From Deltaproteobacteria bacterium (GTDB lineage Bacteria > Desulfobacterota > BSN033 > UBA1163), in contig JAGXTA010000049.1 of assembly GCA_018333535.1 (NCBI GenBank), positions 1-48,556 of the forward strand: a stretch of 48,556 nucleotides of DNA. Reading direction: 5' to 3'. The notes beneath the pieces were generated by a model, which made no database searches, was not told where the DNA came from, and worked only from the letters and a program-made list of their open reading frames with translations. Position 1 is the first letter of the stretch. The number at the start of each line of letters is the position of its first letter. A program made the position numbers and the translations under genes. Of this stretch, positions 23,594-29,000 are shown piece after piece.

Positions 23594-24328
23594 TTATGAA
23601 AACACTTTCTTCCGGTTCGCTTCCATCATGCGATCGAACCGCTTCACATGATCCTGTATCAGGATTTTTGTTTTTTGAGAATCCTTCTTTTTGATGGCTT
23701 CCACAATGCCGCACAGATCCTCGTAGATTCTCTCTGTAACTCTTTTCTCCTTCGGAAGGAATCGGTCGAAATACCTGAAGATATTCTCGTAGACAATCGA
23801 CAATACGGATTCGAAAACCCGGTTTCCGGCAATCCTTGCCAAGCAGAAATGAAACTGATTGTCCTTCCTGATCACCTCTCTCCAGCTTTCCCTATCTTCC
23901 TGGATGAGGTGTTTAATCGATTCGAGAAGAGATGTCAATTCTCTGATGTCCTCTTTCTTCGCTCTTCTTGCCGCCCTCTCAGCGACCGCTCCCTCCACTT
24001 CTTCCCGAAACTCAGATAACTCCTTCAAATCGATCTTTTGATACCTCAGCAGAAGATCGAGACTTTCGCTCACGGGTAGAGTATTGACAGGGCAGACAAT
24101 GGCTCCCCCCCTCATCCCTGTCCGGATCTCGATGAGCTTCTTCTGCTCCAGTGTCCGAAGGGCCTCCCTCAGTGTGCCCCGGCTGACTTCAAAGGTTTCT
24201 CTTAATAGCCTTTCACCGGAGAGTCTATCCCCGGTTTTGAGCCTTCCTTCGAGAATGGCCTCCTGAATCTGGGAGACAATATCCTCAAACGCCCGGTTCT
24301 GTTTCGCCTTTTTGAATAGAGGGTTCAT
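23594..24328 (-). CDS. GntR family (FadR/FCD) transcriptional regulator
   Basis: The 244-residue protein has an N-terminal winged helix (about 12-80: RLSGERLLRETFEVSRGTLREALRTLEQKKL) and a C-terminal all-helical FCD ligand domain with metal-type residues (E-F-R-x-x-x-E; F-H; H-V-K-R-F). FCD regulators usually bind small carboxylates. It lies directly upstream of the TRAP genes and probably governs the catabolic block. A palindrome matching the FadR-type half-site lies just upstream of its ATG, which suggests autoregulation. Confidence 0.85.
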   Translation of the reverse strand: MNPLFKKAKQNRAFEDIVSQIQEAILEGRLKTGDRLSGERLLRETFEVSRGTLREALRTLEQKKLIEIRTGMRGGAIVCPVNTLPVSESLDLLLRYQKIDLKELSEFREEVEGAVAERAARRAKKEDIRELTSLLESIKHLIQEDRESWREVIRKDNQFHFCLARIAGNRVFESVLSIVYENIFRYFDRFLPKEKRVTERIYEDLCGIVEAIKKKDSQKTKILIQDHVKRFDRMMEANRKKVFS

Positions 24329-24333
24329 TTGAA

Positions 24334-24346
24334 ATGGTTAAACCAT
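24334..24346 (-). promoter_or_regulatory. GntR operator-like palindrome ATGGTTAAACCAT
   Basis: ATGGTT-A-AACCAT is a perfect dyad that contains TGGT(N3)ACCA, the usual FadR-subfamily operator form. It ends five bases upstream of the regulator's start codon, so binding would block translation initiation or transcription. Confidence 0.55.
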
Positions 24347-24380
24347 TACAAAACCTTCAACTATTTGTCAATAGGAAGCC

Positions 24381-24408
24381 GGGGTCAGCCCTTGACATTG
24401 GACATTTT
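24381..24408. repeat. REP-like element, copy 1 (left flank of RAYT)
   Basis: GGGGTCAGCCCTTGACATTG followed by GACATT contains a small GTCA/TGAC hairpin. The same element occurs inverted at 25396-25419 and 26726-26751. Copies 1 and 2 bracket the transposase gene. Confidence 0.75.
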
Positions 24409-24446
24409 AAAAAGTAGAATTTCTTCTAAAAACTGGGGGCGGTATT

Positions 24447-25415
24447 ATGGCGAGACCATTGCGAATCGAGTATGAGGGGGGATTTTACCATGTGACCAGC
24501 AGAGGAAATGAACGGAGGAAAATATTTTATGGGAGTTCCGATTACGAGAAATTCAAGGCTTACTTGAGAGAGGCTCAGGAGAAATATGGTTATCTTCTGC
24601 ACTCCTATGTCCTGATGAGCAATCATTATCATCTTCTCATTGAGACGCCCCAGCCGAATTTGAGCCAAGTGATGCACCTCGTCAATGGTTCTTATACCAA
24701 TTATTTCAATAGGAAGAGAGGAAGGAGCGGCCATCTCTTCCAAGGAAGGTATAAGGCAATCCTGATTGAGCGCGATTCTTATCTTCTTGAATTAAGCAGA
24801 TATATTCATTTGAACCCTGTCAGAGCCGAGTTAGTGACAAAGCCGGAAGATTATCCTTACAGTAGTTACGGGGCATTGATCGCCAAGAGGAAGGAGTCTT
24901 TTGTTTGCAGGGATTTGATTTGGAAGATGATTTCCGGAGAGAAAGGGGGGGCTTCTCAGAGATATAAGGTCTTTGTGGAGGGAGGAATGGTTAAGAAGTC
25001 GGATAGCCCATTGAAGGATGTTTATGGGGGAGCAATTTTAGGCGGAGAGAGATTTATTAAGGAGGCCTTAGGGCGAATAAATGGAGAGGTTCTTCATAAA
25101 GAAGAGGTGTCTCATCGGAGGGAGTTAAAAACTTCTTGTGGGGTTGAAGAAATGATCCGGAAGATTTGCGAACACTTAAAGATGCCGTTTGATGAGTTGA
25201 TGAGGGAAAAAGGAGAGAACAGAAAGATGTTGATCTATTTAGCAAAGAAATTTACCGGAATGACAAACCGGCAAATAGCTGATCTTTTAGGTGGGATCAC
25301 CTGTTCAGCGGTGGCGAAAACGTATGAGAGATTTTCTTTAGGGCTTGAGGAGAACAGGGCATTGAGTGAAAAATTAGAAAGCCTTTCCAGACAATTGTCC
25401 AATGTCAAGGGCTGA
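24447..25415 (+). CDS. REP-associated tyrosine transposase (Y1, TnpA_REP type)
   Basis: The 322-residue protein begins MARPLRIEYEGGFYHVTSRG. It has the HUH motif in SNHYHLLIE (about 58-66) and a candidate catalytic Tyr in ELSRYIHLNPVRAEL. A C-terminal DnaA-like helix-turn-helix follows (KKFTGMTNRQIADLLGGITC). Such enzymes nick and mobilise REP hairpins as single strands. Its final residues NVKG and stop are encoded by the right REP copy, and it overlaps the convergent preA-like gene by 11 bp. Strand orientation opposite to the surrounding block marks it as an insertion. Confidence 0.88.
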   Translation: MARPLRIEYEGGFYHVTSRGNERRKIFYGSSDYEKFKAYLREAQEKYGYLLHSYVLMSNHYHLLIETPQPNLSQVMHLVNGSYTNYFNRKRGRSGHLFQGRYKAILIERDSYLLELSRYIHLNPVRAELVTKPEDYPYSSYGALIAKRKESFVCRDLIWKMISGEKGGASQRYKVFVEGGMVKKSDSPLKDVYGGAILGGERFIKEALGRINGEVLHKEEVSHRRELKTSCGVEEMIRKICEHLKMPFDELMREKGENRKMLIYLAKKFTGMTNRQIADLLGGITCSAVAKTYERFSLGLEENRALSEKLESLSRQLSNVKG

Positions 25416-25419
25416 CCCC
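25396..25419. repeat. REP-like element, copy 2 (right flank of RAYT)
   Basis: This inverted copy of the element at 24381 supplies the stop codons of both the transposase (TGA at 25413-25415) and the convergent preA-like gene (stop at 25405-25407). Confidence 0.75.
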
Positions 25420-26601
25420 AATGGCTCCGGGGACAGGACAGACACAGGTGCAGATGCCGCATCCCCGGCAGGCTTCGCCGATCGTCACCTCCCCCTCCTT
25501 GACTTCAATGGCATTATAAAAGCAGGAACGCATGCACCTTTTACAGTTCGTGCATAACTCCCGAACGATGAGAGCGCATTCACGGGGAAGGGATTCCATC
25601 TCTTCGTAGCTCATGGCAGCTTTAGCCGCCACCCCGATGATCTCCCGGACGGATGGATAGCCCTTTCGATCTAAAAATTCTTCTACCCCTTTGATCACCT
25701 TTCCGAGATAACCATATCCTTTCAGCATCACGACGGAGCAGAGTTGCACCAGGGTTGCTCCGGACATCAGGAACTCCACTGCATCCTTCCAGTCATAGGC
25801 TCCGTTTGTCCCTGAAATGGGAAGGTCGAGGCCAGTATAAATTTTGGATACCCATCGTAAGGTTAAAGGCTTGACCCAGGGCCCTCCGACTCCCGCCCAT
25901 CCGTGGATATAGGGCTTGCCCGTCTCGATATCGAGACAGAAACCGACAAAGCGGTTGATAATCGTCACGGCTGAACCGCCTGCAGATTGAACGGCCCTCG
26001 CCATTTCGACTACATCCGCCACCTGAGGAGTGAGCTTGATGATCACAGGGATTTTCACTGACTTCGTCACCTGATAGGTAATGTCGGAGGCAGCGTTTTT
26101 GTCTTGACCCACCAGCATGCCTGTGGGAGTTCCCTTCATCTCCGATGGATGCGGGCATCCGAAGTTGAGCTCGATCAGCCTGATTCCGGTATCTTCAATC
26201 ATCTTCGAAAGGGTCACCCAGCTTTCGACCGTTGTCCCTGCCGCACTTCCAATGATCACACAATCATGTTTCAGGGCTGAGGCTTGAGCTTCTTTTAACT
26301 CCTTCATCCACTCTCCGGGGGTCTCTTCGGCAAGGCCGGTCCGGCCATAAAAAGTGAAAAGCCTCGGAACCTTTCCACGACAGACATTGTGCTCTTCGTC
26401 GAGATAGCGAAACTCCGACATTTTTGTTAAACGCCTCAGGGCCTCGGAATCTGTAACTGTTTTAGCTACCAGCCCCCCTGCCCCGGTCTTGATGACCTGC
26501 TTCATATTGTGGGCCGAAAGGGTTGGCTCCGCAGAGGCTGCAATAATGGGATTCTTAAAATCGACGCCACAAAATTGAACTTTCAGGTCGGCCATGTCCA
26601 T
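25405..26601 (-). CDS. PreA-like dihydropyrimidine/dihydroorotate dehydrogenase with ferredoxin domain
   Basis: The 398-residue protein has an FMN TIM barrel (1-320; NPIIAASAEPTLSAHN, IELNFGCPHP, GTNGAYDWKDAVEFLMSGAT) and two C-terminal 4Fe-4S motifs, CTNCKRCMRSC and CRGCGICTCVCP. This matches PreA-type subunits, which reduce pyrimidines or related rings, but the usual catalytic Cys loop and the PreT partner were not identified. The last residues (AIGVSP) and stop lie in the REP copy, so the native C-terminus was probably altered. It is adjacent to the Mo hydroxylase genes. Confidence 0.8.
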   Translation of the reverse strand: MDMADLKVQFCGVDFKNPIIAASAEPTLSAHNMKQVIKTGAGGLVAKTVTDSEALRRLTKMSEFRYLDEEHNVCRGKVPRLFTFYGRTGLAEETPGEWMKELKEAQASALKHDCVIIGSAAGTTVESWVTLSKMIEDTGIRLIELNFGCPHPSEMKGTPTGMLVGQDKNAASDITYQVTKSVKIPVIIKLTPQVADVVEMARAVQSAGGSAVTIINRFVGFCLDIETGKPYIHGWAGVGGPWVKPLTLRWVSKIYTGLDLPISGTNGAYDWKDAVEFLMSGATLVQLCSVVMLKGYGYLGKVIKGVEEFLDRKGYPSVREIIGVAAKAAMSYEEMESLPRECALIVRELCTNCKRCMRSCFYNAIEVKEGEVTIGEACRGCGICTCVCPVPGAIGVSP

Positions 26602-26705
26602 TTACCTCTCTACTCAGTTTGTCCCATCACTGTCTTCCCTTGGGGGCGATGGCTGCTTATTCAAAGGTGTTAGACCTGAAGAAAAAAAGGGGAGGAAGTG
26701 AACCA

Positions 26706-29000
26706 TTAGAATTTTTTCCGGTGCAAATGTCCAATGTCAAGGGCTGACCCCAGTTTCTTCAGGATTTTTTCCGGAGTGATGGGGAGTTCTGTGAATCTTA
26801 CGCCAATCGCATCATAGATGGCATTGGCCACTGCCGCAGGCGAAGGGTTGAGCGCCGGCTCTCCGATTCCTTTGGCTCCAAACGGGCCATTCGGATCAAT
26901 TGGCTCCACCAGGATGGACTTTATCGGTGGGATATCCAGCGGGCCTGGCATGACATAGTCCCTGAAATCGGGATTAAGAACCTTTCCCTTTTCAACGACC
27001 ATATCCTCCATCAATGCCCATCCGATTCCCTGTGTCACACCGCCGTGAATCTGCCCTTCTGTCGCCTGCGGATTGATGGCCCGGCCAACATCGTGAGCCG
27101 CAGTGTAATGGAGCACATTCACATGACCTGTCTCTGTGTCCACCTCCACCTCGGCAATCTGGCAGGCAAACGGGTAAGCGGGCGCAACATTTCCATACTT
27201 GGTCACCGGATCAGGAAGGACCGTATCCGGAACCCAGAACCCAGTTCCTACAATGGGAGAGCCGCCTCGCCTGAGCAGACAGATCTCCGCCACTTTCTCA
27301 AAGGAAAGATTTCTTTCAGGCTCCTCCTTCACATAGATCTTCCCTTCCTTAGCCTCCAACTCGGAAGGGATCGTCTCAAATATTTCTGCTGCCACTTCGA
27401 GGATCTGTCGCTTCGCATCCTGTGCCGCCGCTTTCACGCCATTTCCGCCGAAGACCGTCCCGCGGGTTGCAAAACTTCCCAGGCCAAACGGGCTGATATC
27501 CGTATCGACCGGAGCCACCTCAATCCGGTCAAGAGCAACTCCTAACTCTTCTGCAACAATCTGGGCGAAGACCGTTCGCTGTCCCTGGCCCATGTCCGAT
27601 TCCCCATGATAGACCAGGACCTTGCCTTCCCTTCCGATGCGCACGATCCCTGCTCCTCCATCAAACTCCCGTGAGAAGGCGCGATTTCCTGAGACATGGT
27701 TGCAGCAGGCCAGTCCAATGCCGCGGCTAAATCGTTTCTTCCGTCGCTTCTCCTCCCATCCCGATGCCTCTACAGCCTTTTGGACGCACTCTTCTAACCC
27801 GGAGGAGCCAATCTGCCAGCCATGGATTGAAACCTCCCCCGTCTTGAGTCCATTCCTGATGCGCAGTTCCGCCGGATCCATATTCAAATGGCCCGCAATC
27901 ATATCGAGGGAGCTCTCAAGCGCAAAGGTCATCTGGGCATTTCCAAAGCCGCGGAAACAACTCGTGGGAACGGTATTGGTGTAAACCGTGATCCCCTCTG
28001 TCCTCAGATGTTCGAAGCGATAAAGGGAATCGACACGGTAACAGGCGGTCGCCACAATGGCCATCGAATAGATTGCCCTTGCTCCGGAACCACCGATGAT
28101 CTTCACTTCTTTTCCGACCAGCGTCCCATCTTTTTTAGCGCCGACTTTGAGATCGATATACATGGGGACCCGTGGATTGCCTGCCATGAAATCCTCTTCC
28201 CGGCTGTTCACCATCCGGATGGGTTTCCCTGTTTTTTGACTCAAGACAGCGGCGGCAAGATGGAGATTCGTCTCCATCTTTGCTCCGAACGCGCCGCCAT
28301 AGTAGGGAACGACGACCCGGATCTTCTCAAGCGGCAGCCCCAGGGCTTTTGCATAGGTGATTCGCGTCATCGAAGGAATCTGCGTGGCAAGATAAAGGGT
28401 CAATTTTCCTGTGGGATCAAAATGGGCAACACAGGCCATGGGTTCGAGATAAGCCTGATAAACCTGATTTGTATAGTAGCGCTCCGAGTGGACGACATCG
28501 CATTCTTGAAATGCCCTGTCCACATCTCCTTTGTTCAATTTAAACTCAGAGACGATATTTCTCTCTTTATCATGAATCAGGACCGCTCCGGGTTGCATGG
28601 CTTCAATGGGATCGAAGACCGAAGCAAGCTCCTCGTACTCCACCCGGATCAGATCGAGCGCTTCCTCTGCCGTATCCTCATCCACGGCCGCCACGCCTGC
28701 CACCTCATCCCCGATGAATCGGACCTTCTCCACAGCAAAGATGTTCCAGTCCTCTGTTCTCGGACCAAAAGGAATTTGGGGCGTATCCTCCGCTGTGACA
28801 ATGGCCTTCACTCCCTTGAGGCGCCTCGCCTTTGAAGGATCGATATGGAGAATGCGGGCATGGGGATGAGGACTTCGAAGAATTTTACCGTAAAGCATTC
28901 CCGCAAGCTGGAGGTCGGAGACGAACTCCGCAACGCCCCGTGCCTTTTCATTCGCATCGATCTGCGGAACAGAATGTCCAACCACGGAATACTTCTTCAT
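26706..29000 (-). CDS. Xanthine dehydrogenase-family molybdenum hydroxylase, large subunit
   Basis: The 764-residue protein starts MKKYSVVGHSVPQIDANEKA and shows the Mo-pterin motifs GGAFGAKMETN, CFRGFGNAQMTFALE and FGAKGIGEPALNPSPAAVAN, with the catalytic Glu in GIGEPA. These enzymes hydroxylate aromatic heterocycles or oxidise CO or aldehydes; no CO-dehydrogenase AYRCSFR loop is seen. A small-Fe-S and a FAD subunit gene follow upstream. GAGGGAGAATCAGGG precedes the ATG. The last 14 residues (SALDIGHLHRKKF and one before) are encoded by a REP copy and a duplicated flank. Confidence 0.88.
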   Translation of the reverse strand: MKKYSVVGHSVPQIDANEKARGVAEFVSDLQLAGMLYGKILRSPHPHARILHIDPSKARRLKGVKAIVTAEDTPQIPFGPRTEDWNIFAVEKVRFIGDEVAGVAAVDEDTAEEALDLIRVEYEELASVFDPIEAMQPGAVLIHDKERNIVSEFKLNKGDVDRAFQECDVVHSERYYTNQVYQAYLEPMACVAHFDPTGKLTLYLATQIPSMTRITYAKALGLPLEKIRVVVPYYGGAFGAKMETNLHLAAAVLSQKTGKPIRMVNSREEDFMAGNPRVPMYIDLKVGAKKDGTLVGKEVKIIGGSGARAIYSMAIVATACYRVDSLYRFEHLRTEGITVYTNTVPTSCFRGFGNAQMTFALESSLDMIAGHLNMDPAELRIRNGLKTGEVSIHGWQIGSSGLEECVQKAVEASGWEEKRRKKRFSRGIGLACCNHVSGNRAFSREFDGGAGIVRIGREGKVLVYHGESDMGQGQRTVFAQIVAEELGVALDRIEVAPVDTDISPFGLGSFATRGTVFGGNGVKAAAQDAKRQILEVAAEIFETIPSELEAKEGKIYVKEEPERNLSFEKVAEICLLRRGGSPIVGTGFWVPDTVLPDPVTKYGNVAPAYPFACQIAEVEVDTETGHVNVLHYTAAHDVGRAINPQATEGQIHGGVTQGIGWALMEDMVVEKGKVLNPDFRDYVMPGPLDIPPIKSILVEPIDPNGPFGAKGIGEPALNPSPAAVANAIYDAIGVRFTELPITPEKILKKLGSALDIGHLHRKKF
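26726..26751. repeat. REP-like element, copy 3, inside the 3' end of the Mo hydroxylase gene
   Basis: The element has the same sequence and orientation as copy 2. Sequence of the form CCGGAAAAAAT(C/T)CT(G/A)A (minus strand) lies on both sides (26706-26721 and 26759-26774), like a target duplication. Confidence 0.7.

Follow-up and report, generated by a model that had tools for sequence, protein, structure and literature searches.

TIRtron-like terminal repeats as the source of foreign C termini on two neighboring enzymes of a Desulfobacterota genome

Introduction

TIRtrons, in which the gene for a RAYT-like transposase (TIRYT) lies between terminal inverted repeats (TIRs), were described in 2013 by Di Nocera et al., who gave GGGGWSAS as the consensus of their ends (PMC3733652); they are thought equivalent to TnpA-REP subclass 2.1, or RAYT group 1 (PMC6006769). 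Among REP/RAYT systems, GTAG REP ends often supply TAG stop codons (PMC3733652), four rayt 3′ ends have been built into BIMEs (PMC2817692), and REPIN clusters have been repeated together with their flanks (PMC3116915). How RAYT-type elements copy themselves is described as a central but unresolved issue (PMC3116915). Here, we analyze a RAYT gene bounded by inverted 24-bp repeats on contig JAGXTA010000049.1 (assembly GCA_018333535.1, Deltaproteobacteria bacterium), the whole 48,556 nucleotides of which we call the window. A sequence-only reading had proposed a REP/RAYT element that rewrites the ends of neighboring genes. The RAYT element and the rewriting of two enzyme 3′ ends stood up; the ends themselves are better described as the TIRs of a TIRtron. 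Very probably, an autonomous TIRtron occupies the final codons of a PreA-like gene in the window, and the 3′ stub of a second one occupies those of the neighboring molybdenum (Mo) hydroxylase gene.

Results

A RAYT gene between exact inverted repeats

The RAYT gene lies, as first proposed, between inverted exact copies of one 24-mer (GGGGTCAGCCCTTGACATTGGACA), which delimit a 1,039-bp element at 24381 to 25419 (Table 1). The window contains three exact copies, and dinucleotide shuffles of it contained no exact 24-mer. The REP-like hairpin of the sequence-only reading was not confirmed, and strong REP hairpins were rejected, since the isolated 24-mer folds into a stem of 4 bp at most (about −2 kcal/mol).

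Profile matches above the cutoff identified the protein as a RAYT (Y1_Tnp PF01797, 8 × 10−16; NCBI REP_Tyr_transpos NF047646, 92 bits against a cutoff of 80), and its C terminus matched Bac_DnaA_C (PF08299) at 23.2 bits, under the 31.5 cutoff. The best fold matches of its AlphaFold model in the PDB were the RAYT-REP complex 4er8 and IS200/IS605 transposases, with DnaA domain IV further down the list (3pvp, TMt 0.82); a PDB sequence search gave no match at an E value of ≤0.01, and a plasmid search returned 28 records, each less than 60% identical. Among the copies examined, 11 distinct elements share the layout of a RAYT between inverted repeats (1,037 to 1,089 bp). Their RAYTs are 51 to 61% identical to that of the window, H60, H62, and Y119 are invariant in all 11, and every one ends in SNVKG and a stop within the right repeat. 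The coding DNA of these elements is 56 to 64% identical, and the right repeat is nearly constant.

Table 1. Coordinates of the element, the third repeat copy, and the adjoining genes in the window
Feature	Position	Strand	Basis or remark
9 nt TAGGAAGCC between native left flank (...TTTGTCAA) and left repeat	24372..24380		Orthologue alignment (L135, L137, L138)
Left TIR, 24-mer	24381..24404	+	Exact repeat; similarity to right end runs to 27 bp, 96% identity
RAYT/TIRYT transposase, 322 aa	24447..25415	+	HUH motif H60-Y-H62; Tyr119 in RYIHLNPVRA; C-terminal DnaA-domain-IV-like helix-turn-helix (HTH)
Right TIR	25396..25419	−	Encodes SNVKG-stop of RAYT and GVSP-stop of PreA-like protein
PreA-like dihydropyrimidine/dihydroorotate dehydrogenase-family protein, 398 aa	25405..26601	−	Last residues GVSP and stop from element
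Probable decayed 3′ end of second RAYT gene, left limit approximate	26640..26727	+	Reads ...LDLKKKRGGSEPLEFFPVQMSNVKG-stop
Mo hydroxylase large subunit (4-hydroxybenzoyl-CoA reductase/xanthine dehydrogenase family), 764 aa	26706..29000	−	Native ...LKALKKK-stop replaced by ...LKKL-GSALDIGHLHRKKF-stop
Third 24-mer copy, right end of second, decayed element	26728..26751	−	Exact repeat; RAYT-tail comparison

At the left junction, native homology stops at ...TTTGTCAA, and the next 9 nt (TAGGAAGCC) are unmatched in all three alignable orthologues; they are possibly passenger DNA, possibly simple divergence. At the right junction and in the Mo hydroxylase gene, the flank appears native right up to the repeat. 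The three orthologues carry about 33 to 45 nt where the window has only the element and these 9 nt, which points to loss or divergence, and in this comparison no duplication was seen across the intact element.

Transposon-derived tails on two enzymes

In the sequence-only reading, the right repeat supplied the stop of the RAYT and that of the convergent PreA-like gene, and the third copy gave the Mo hydroxylase a foreign C terminus and a stop. Both proved correct. The RAYT stop (25413 to 25415) and the PreA-like stop (25405 to 25407) lie inside the right repeat, and the Mo hydroxylase stop (26706 to 26708) lies about 20 nt past the third 24-mer. In four genomes of the same genus (G006, G009, G011, and G008), genes for PreA and the Mo hydroxylase (83 to 95% protein identity) are found in synteny and the element is missing; their tails were translated by eye from the aligned DNA. 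After PVPGAI, the four PreA orthologues continue as LLRHLCVYPPS, FLDRV, QLFPQ, and HLQSEPLRFSS, each followed by a stop; the window protein ends in GVSP. The Mo hydroxylase orthologues end in LKALKERQK, LKALKKK, and LRALKDHQKNK, the fourth reading LKALK..., and the window protein runs from LKKL into GSALDIGHLHRKKF (GSALDIG...). Because orthologues without the element carry other, native tails, the comparison that could have refuted the proposal instead confirms that the window tails are foreign and were brought by transposon DNA.

The third 24-mer most likely marks what is left, at the 3′ side, of a second RAYT element that has decayed. When anchored at the repeat, the 126 nt inward of it could be aligned with the 3′ end of the RAYT gene at a score that 2 of 2,000 shuffles matched. 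In the frame set by the repeat, 8 of 25 residues agree with the tail of the own RAYT; in this second comparison, copies that are not RAYT ends scored 0 to 6, and a remnant (L007) scored 10.

Stops supplied to unrelated genes

In frame 1, the first 15 nt inward from the outer end of the repeat (GGG GTC AGC CCT TGA) encode GVSP and a stop, and a GVSP or GVTP ending encoded by this part of the repeat is found on ten unrelated proteins, PreA included. Eight proteins were scanned with Pfam; the families found were PilZ, exonuclease-HRDC, GFO/IDH/MocA, CN-hydrolase, PQQ propeller, and AAA-like, one protein had no family, and the eighth, a frame 2 case, was a ribulose-phosphate 3-epimerase. The rest of the ten are PreA, one phosphoenolpyruvate synthase-like protein (judged by eye), and one protein in genome G378. 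Frame 1, with its immediate stop, was used in 10 of 14 coding overlaps judged real (10:2:2 over the three frames; P = 0.004). These 14 are 16 rows minus three judged spurious (L005 in frame 2, L079, and L209 on the minus strand), plus the window Mo hydroxylase gene, added by hand because the overlap script had skipped its short locus.

We compiled the position of copies relative to genes, counting each distinct context once and leaving aside loci L134 to L183 and copies less than 80 nt from the start or 60 nt from the end of a locus. Within 300 nt of the outer flank of the resulting 182 copies, a gene 3′ end was found for 86, a 5′ end for 45, and a gene interior for 4; for 47 there was none or it was far. 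Clustering at gene 3′ ends held only at short range, with 36 three-prime and 9 five-prime ends at ≤25 nt including overlap (P = 0.004). A broad orientation bias was rejected, since 86:45 over 300 nt did not differ significantly from noncoding control positions (255:178; P = 0.13). Insertions in gene interiors would be purged and those in last codons would survive because the element carries its own stop, which we infer to be tolerance, not a targeted function.

Copy number and spread

The genome-wide count suggested for the motif gave 13 copies at ≤3 mismatches in the own genome of the window (4.39 Mb, 192 contigs) and 0 for the reversed control pattern. The 24-mer is present in 19 of 395 genomes of the phylum (≤1 mismatch) and in 9 of 17 of the family (≤2 mismatches). 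The pattern GGGGTCASVCCTTGACATTGGACA matched 63 stretches in the GTDB collection, with record titles that name Pelotomaculum, Peptococcaceae, Desulfobacterales, Desulfuromonadales, Syntrophaceae, Nitrospirae, Nitrospinota, Aminicenantes, Gemmatimonadota, WOR-3, TA06, FCPU426, and others. Pelotomaculum has 33 copies, and two other genomes of that genus that were examined have 0. Since many of the source genomes are metagenome-assembled genomes (MAGs), individual contigs might be misbinned; the record of Pelotomaculum terephthalicicum is that of a named species.

Shared flanks outside the repeat

We compared the sequence directly outside the repeat in 938 within-genome pairs of copies, after removal of pairs with ≥16 nt in common (duplicates) or within 120 nt of each other (the same junction). 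Seventeen pairs share 6 to 10 nt (0.33 expected from shifted positions), and none of the 938 shares 11 to 15 nt. Some of these pairs are close neighbors, and others lie on different contigs (agacggcata in FK4.bin6; accaatt in G350). Such flanks could have traveled with the element. A genome-specific target preference, with no passenger DNA, would also produce them, and we give this alternative chances not far below even. It is favored by a weak general preference for purines at −9 to −6, A at −2, and A or T at −1. In the flanks of 136 nonduplicated copies outside Pelotomaculum, purines make up 68 to 80% at −9 to −6 and position −2 is A-rich; the 15 nonduplicated Pelotomaculum ends showed no purine excess at −8 to −6. 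Among 6,000 random between-genome pairs, 14 had 6 to 7 nt in common and one more was identical over 60 nt, which also favors a preference, as do the native flanks at the right junction and the Mo hydroxylase gene of the window and the occurrence of two different repeat families at one site in G350 and G315. Against it, different pairs within one genome have different sequences in common.

The shared site just mentioned, directly after ...AATTGTCAAG, is occupied by L215 in G350 and by L243 in G315, so that two TIR families occur at the same intergenic site in two species. Of three G350 insertions, L215 has a native flank that can be matched to two relatives up to about 10 nt from the repeat, L220 has a relative that diverges beyond GATAGG, and L216 had no relative aligned upstream; these sites establish neither a target preference nor passenger DNA.

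Tandem duplications at outer borders

Many outer borders carry repeats of a short target sequence, with a prefix of the element after each occurrence. Locus L126, for example, reads aaattcgt-(20 nt of element)-aaattcgt-GGGGTCAG-tgaaattcgt-element. With k nt of target and j nt of element in the repeated unit, and thresholds of k ≥ 6 and k + j ≥ 9, duplications were found at 16 of 33 borders in Pelotomaculum (control, 20/6,347) and at 13 of 149 elsewhere (control, 133/27,900). In an earlier copy set they occurred at 20 of 133 outer borders (31/6,351 in the control) and 2 of 130 inner borders. A stricter scan found a tandem duplication across the boundary at 26 of 181 borders; for comparison, 12 lay wholly within the 110-nt flank and 11 wholly inside. 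The target part of the 26 measured 6 to 11 nt in 25 cases and 18 nt in one, and the element part measured 1 to 35 nt. Upstream prefixes of ≥6 nt were sought separately, to escape the detection bound; in the 19 rows obtained, 12 have a 6- to 11-nt spacer that repeats the preceding target in full or with ≤2 nt off, 2 are compound, and 5 do not fit. The single-contig, 4.54-Mb genome G378 provides examples (L211 and L213), which argues against a short-read artifact. A general rule is opposed by the absence of any such duplication among the copies of the window's own genome and by the concentration of more than half of the cases in one genome. No common dinucleotide was seen by eye at the left breakpoints, and the candidate C-T was rejected. 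The G315 insertion L243 likewise has a junction duplication. Among the papers listed by literature searches on REPIN, RAYT, IS200, and IS605, we found none with such junctions described in its title or the opening of its abstract.

Inverted repeats can stall polymerases, and the duplications could have arisen once the element was in place, by ordinary slippage of replication at the base of the inverted-repeat structure, in which case they would not record transposition. We give this competing account somewhat less than even chances. In Pelotomaculum, ends in short pairs are duplicated in 11 of 24 cases, in keeping with it. Elsewhere, however, duplication affects 6 of 47 solitary ends, 2 of 21 ends in long pairs, 0 of 26 in short pairs, and 5 of 55 that could not be classified. 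Further, microhomology, measured as the run length less the unit length, comes to 0 in 15 of the 26 duplications and is negative in 4 others (the remaining 7 have +2 or +3); the target part falls in the narrow 6- to 11-nt range named above; and slippage does not account for dispersed copies with 6 to 10 nt of common flank.

A tentative copying scheme would cover both patterns. The 3′-OH that HUH transposases leave can serve as a primer, and the cuts made by E. coli TnpA-REP fall close to the REP, on its 5′ or 3′ side (PMC8266576). A TIRYT transposase may nick and rejoin single strands, perhaps often 6 to 11 nt outside the repeat, and the 3′-OH would prime copying through the flank into the element. 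An early stop and rejoining would leave flank, element prefix, flank, and element at the site, in the observed order and without microhomology; long prefixes would give tandem repeat clusters; and finished copies would carry 6 to 10 nt of flank along. The coupling sequences of Tn916 are a parallel. That these enzymes often nick 6 to 11 nt outside the terminal repeat, not at its border, is a proposal that we consider doubtful as it stands.

Neighboring and related repeats

A perfect palindrome, AATGGTTAAACCATT, lies at 24333 to 24347, just upstream of a GntR-type regulator gene (23594 to 24328, minus strand), and is conserved at the orthologous sites L135, L137, and L138; it is a likely operator. 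The own genome contains a second TIR-type RAYT (L015; G000:C4, 35011 to 35664) of about 43% identity, the ends of which start with GGGGTCAGGTCTTT and GGGGTCAGGGCTTT; its repeat family is also present at L041, L243, and L247. Three further loci (L016, L017, and L018 on G000:C176, C51, and C167), all near contig ends, match a distant RAYT (37% identity to that of the window) with nearly equal scores and identity, and probably represent a multicopy relative that breaks the assembly. Finally, the 24-mer lies within a larger repeat near a PIN-domain-like open reading frame (read by eye) at L030 and L037 (G006:C189) and L001 (G000:C44); this larger repeat is present twice in G006, 704 bp apart, and once in the own genome.

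Discussion

For the third copy, an independent REP or MITE insertion with a duplicated 16-bp target, much as the sequence-only reading had it, is unlikely. The two sides of this copy do match at 13 of 14 nt (AGAATTTTTTCCGG at 26708 to 26721 and AGGATTTTTTCCGG at 26761 to 26774), but this score was reached by 83 of 5,000 shuffles, a flank match that good was found in 2 of 182 copies with the third copy included, and no duplication was seen across the intact element of the window. Moreover, the stretch inside can be aligned with the 3′ end of the RAYT gene when anchored at the repeat, and its translation reads like the C terminus of a RAYT. We therefore rejected the target duplication; the flank match is probably chance, and the copy is better read as a decayed RAYT end. 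That the C-terminal residues of the two enzymes are native and the repeats meet gene ends by chance is extremely improbable and was rejected for both genes, since no support for it was found, PVPGAI and LKAL or LRAL are followed by different tails in the four orthologues, and GVSP or GVTP ends ten unrelated proteins.

Several points count against an autonomous TIRtron beside a second TIRtron stub. The AlphaFold model of the RAYT is poor (mean pLDDT of 58.8; residues 109 to 231, including Tyr119, below 50). The alignment of the stub is weak: its unanchored local score was equaled in 27 of 2,000 shuffles, and in the frame set by the repeat it has 8 of 25 residues in common with the tail of the own RAYT. 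The 3′-end excess over 300 nt does not significantly exceed the control, most genomes are draft MAGs, and the copies may be inactive.

The C-terminal rewriting is well supported, and it is the junction pattern that merits further attention. Orthologous empty sites show a transposon end replacing protein C termini, and the same four-residue tail is found on unrelated proteins across phyla; annotators should expect transposon-derived tails of the GVSP type. If confirmed, junction duplications and shared flanks would be a readable record of RAYT-type replication, and if the transposase does nick outside the repeat, these scars would reveal how RAYT-type elements copy themselves.

By its features, the element fits the TIRtron/TIRYT type (PMC3733652) and subclass 2.1 (PMC6006769), not a classical REP/RAYT pair. 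An IS200-like element of the Y1/HUH kind, it has a RAYT-like transposase between TIRs, GGGGWSAS at both ends in the form GGGGTCAG, and a C-terminal HTH or Bac_DnaA_C extension (by fold match, with PF08299 subthreshold); as in the TIRtrons described, repeats also occur as dimers and clusters. Copies at unrelated loci and empty sites in relatives are as expected of a mobile element. With REP/RAYT systems (REPtrons, REPINs, and E. coli TnpA-REP, PDB 4er8) it shares the transposase fold, inverted repeat pairs, and copies near gene 3′ ends. In contrast to these, it lacks a GTAG foot, GTAG/GGAG-tagged REP hairpins beside the gene, and any strong hairpin, and it has an extra DnaA-IV-like domain; its copy number (13 in the own genome, 33 in Pelotomaculum) compares with a usual >100 per genome. 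IS200/IS605 elements (IS608, ISDra2) have the same Y1 HUH fold; they lack TIRs (PMC2817692) and have subterminal hairpins, whereas here the repeats are at the very ends. The TIRtron family and the supply of stops by GTAG REP ends are already known, and the window element adds to a known family. Beyond the TIRtron passages of PMC3733652 and PMC6006769 on which we draw, it brings host protein tails added by TIRs, tandem duplications at junctions, and one 24-mer that crosses phyla.

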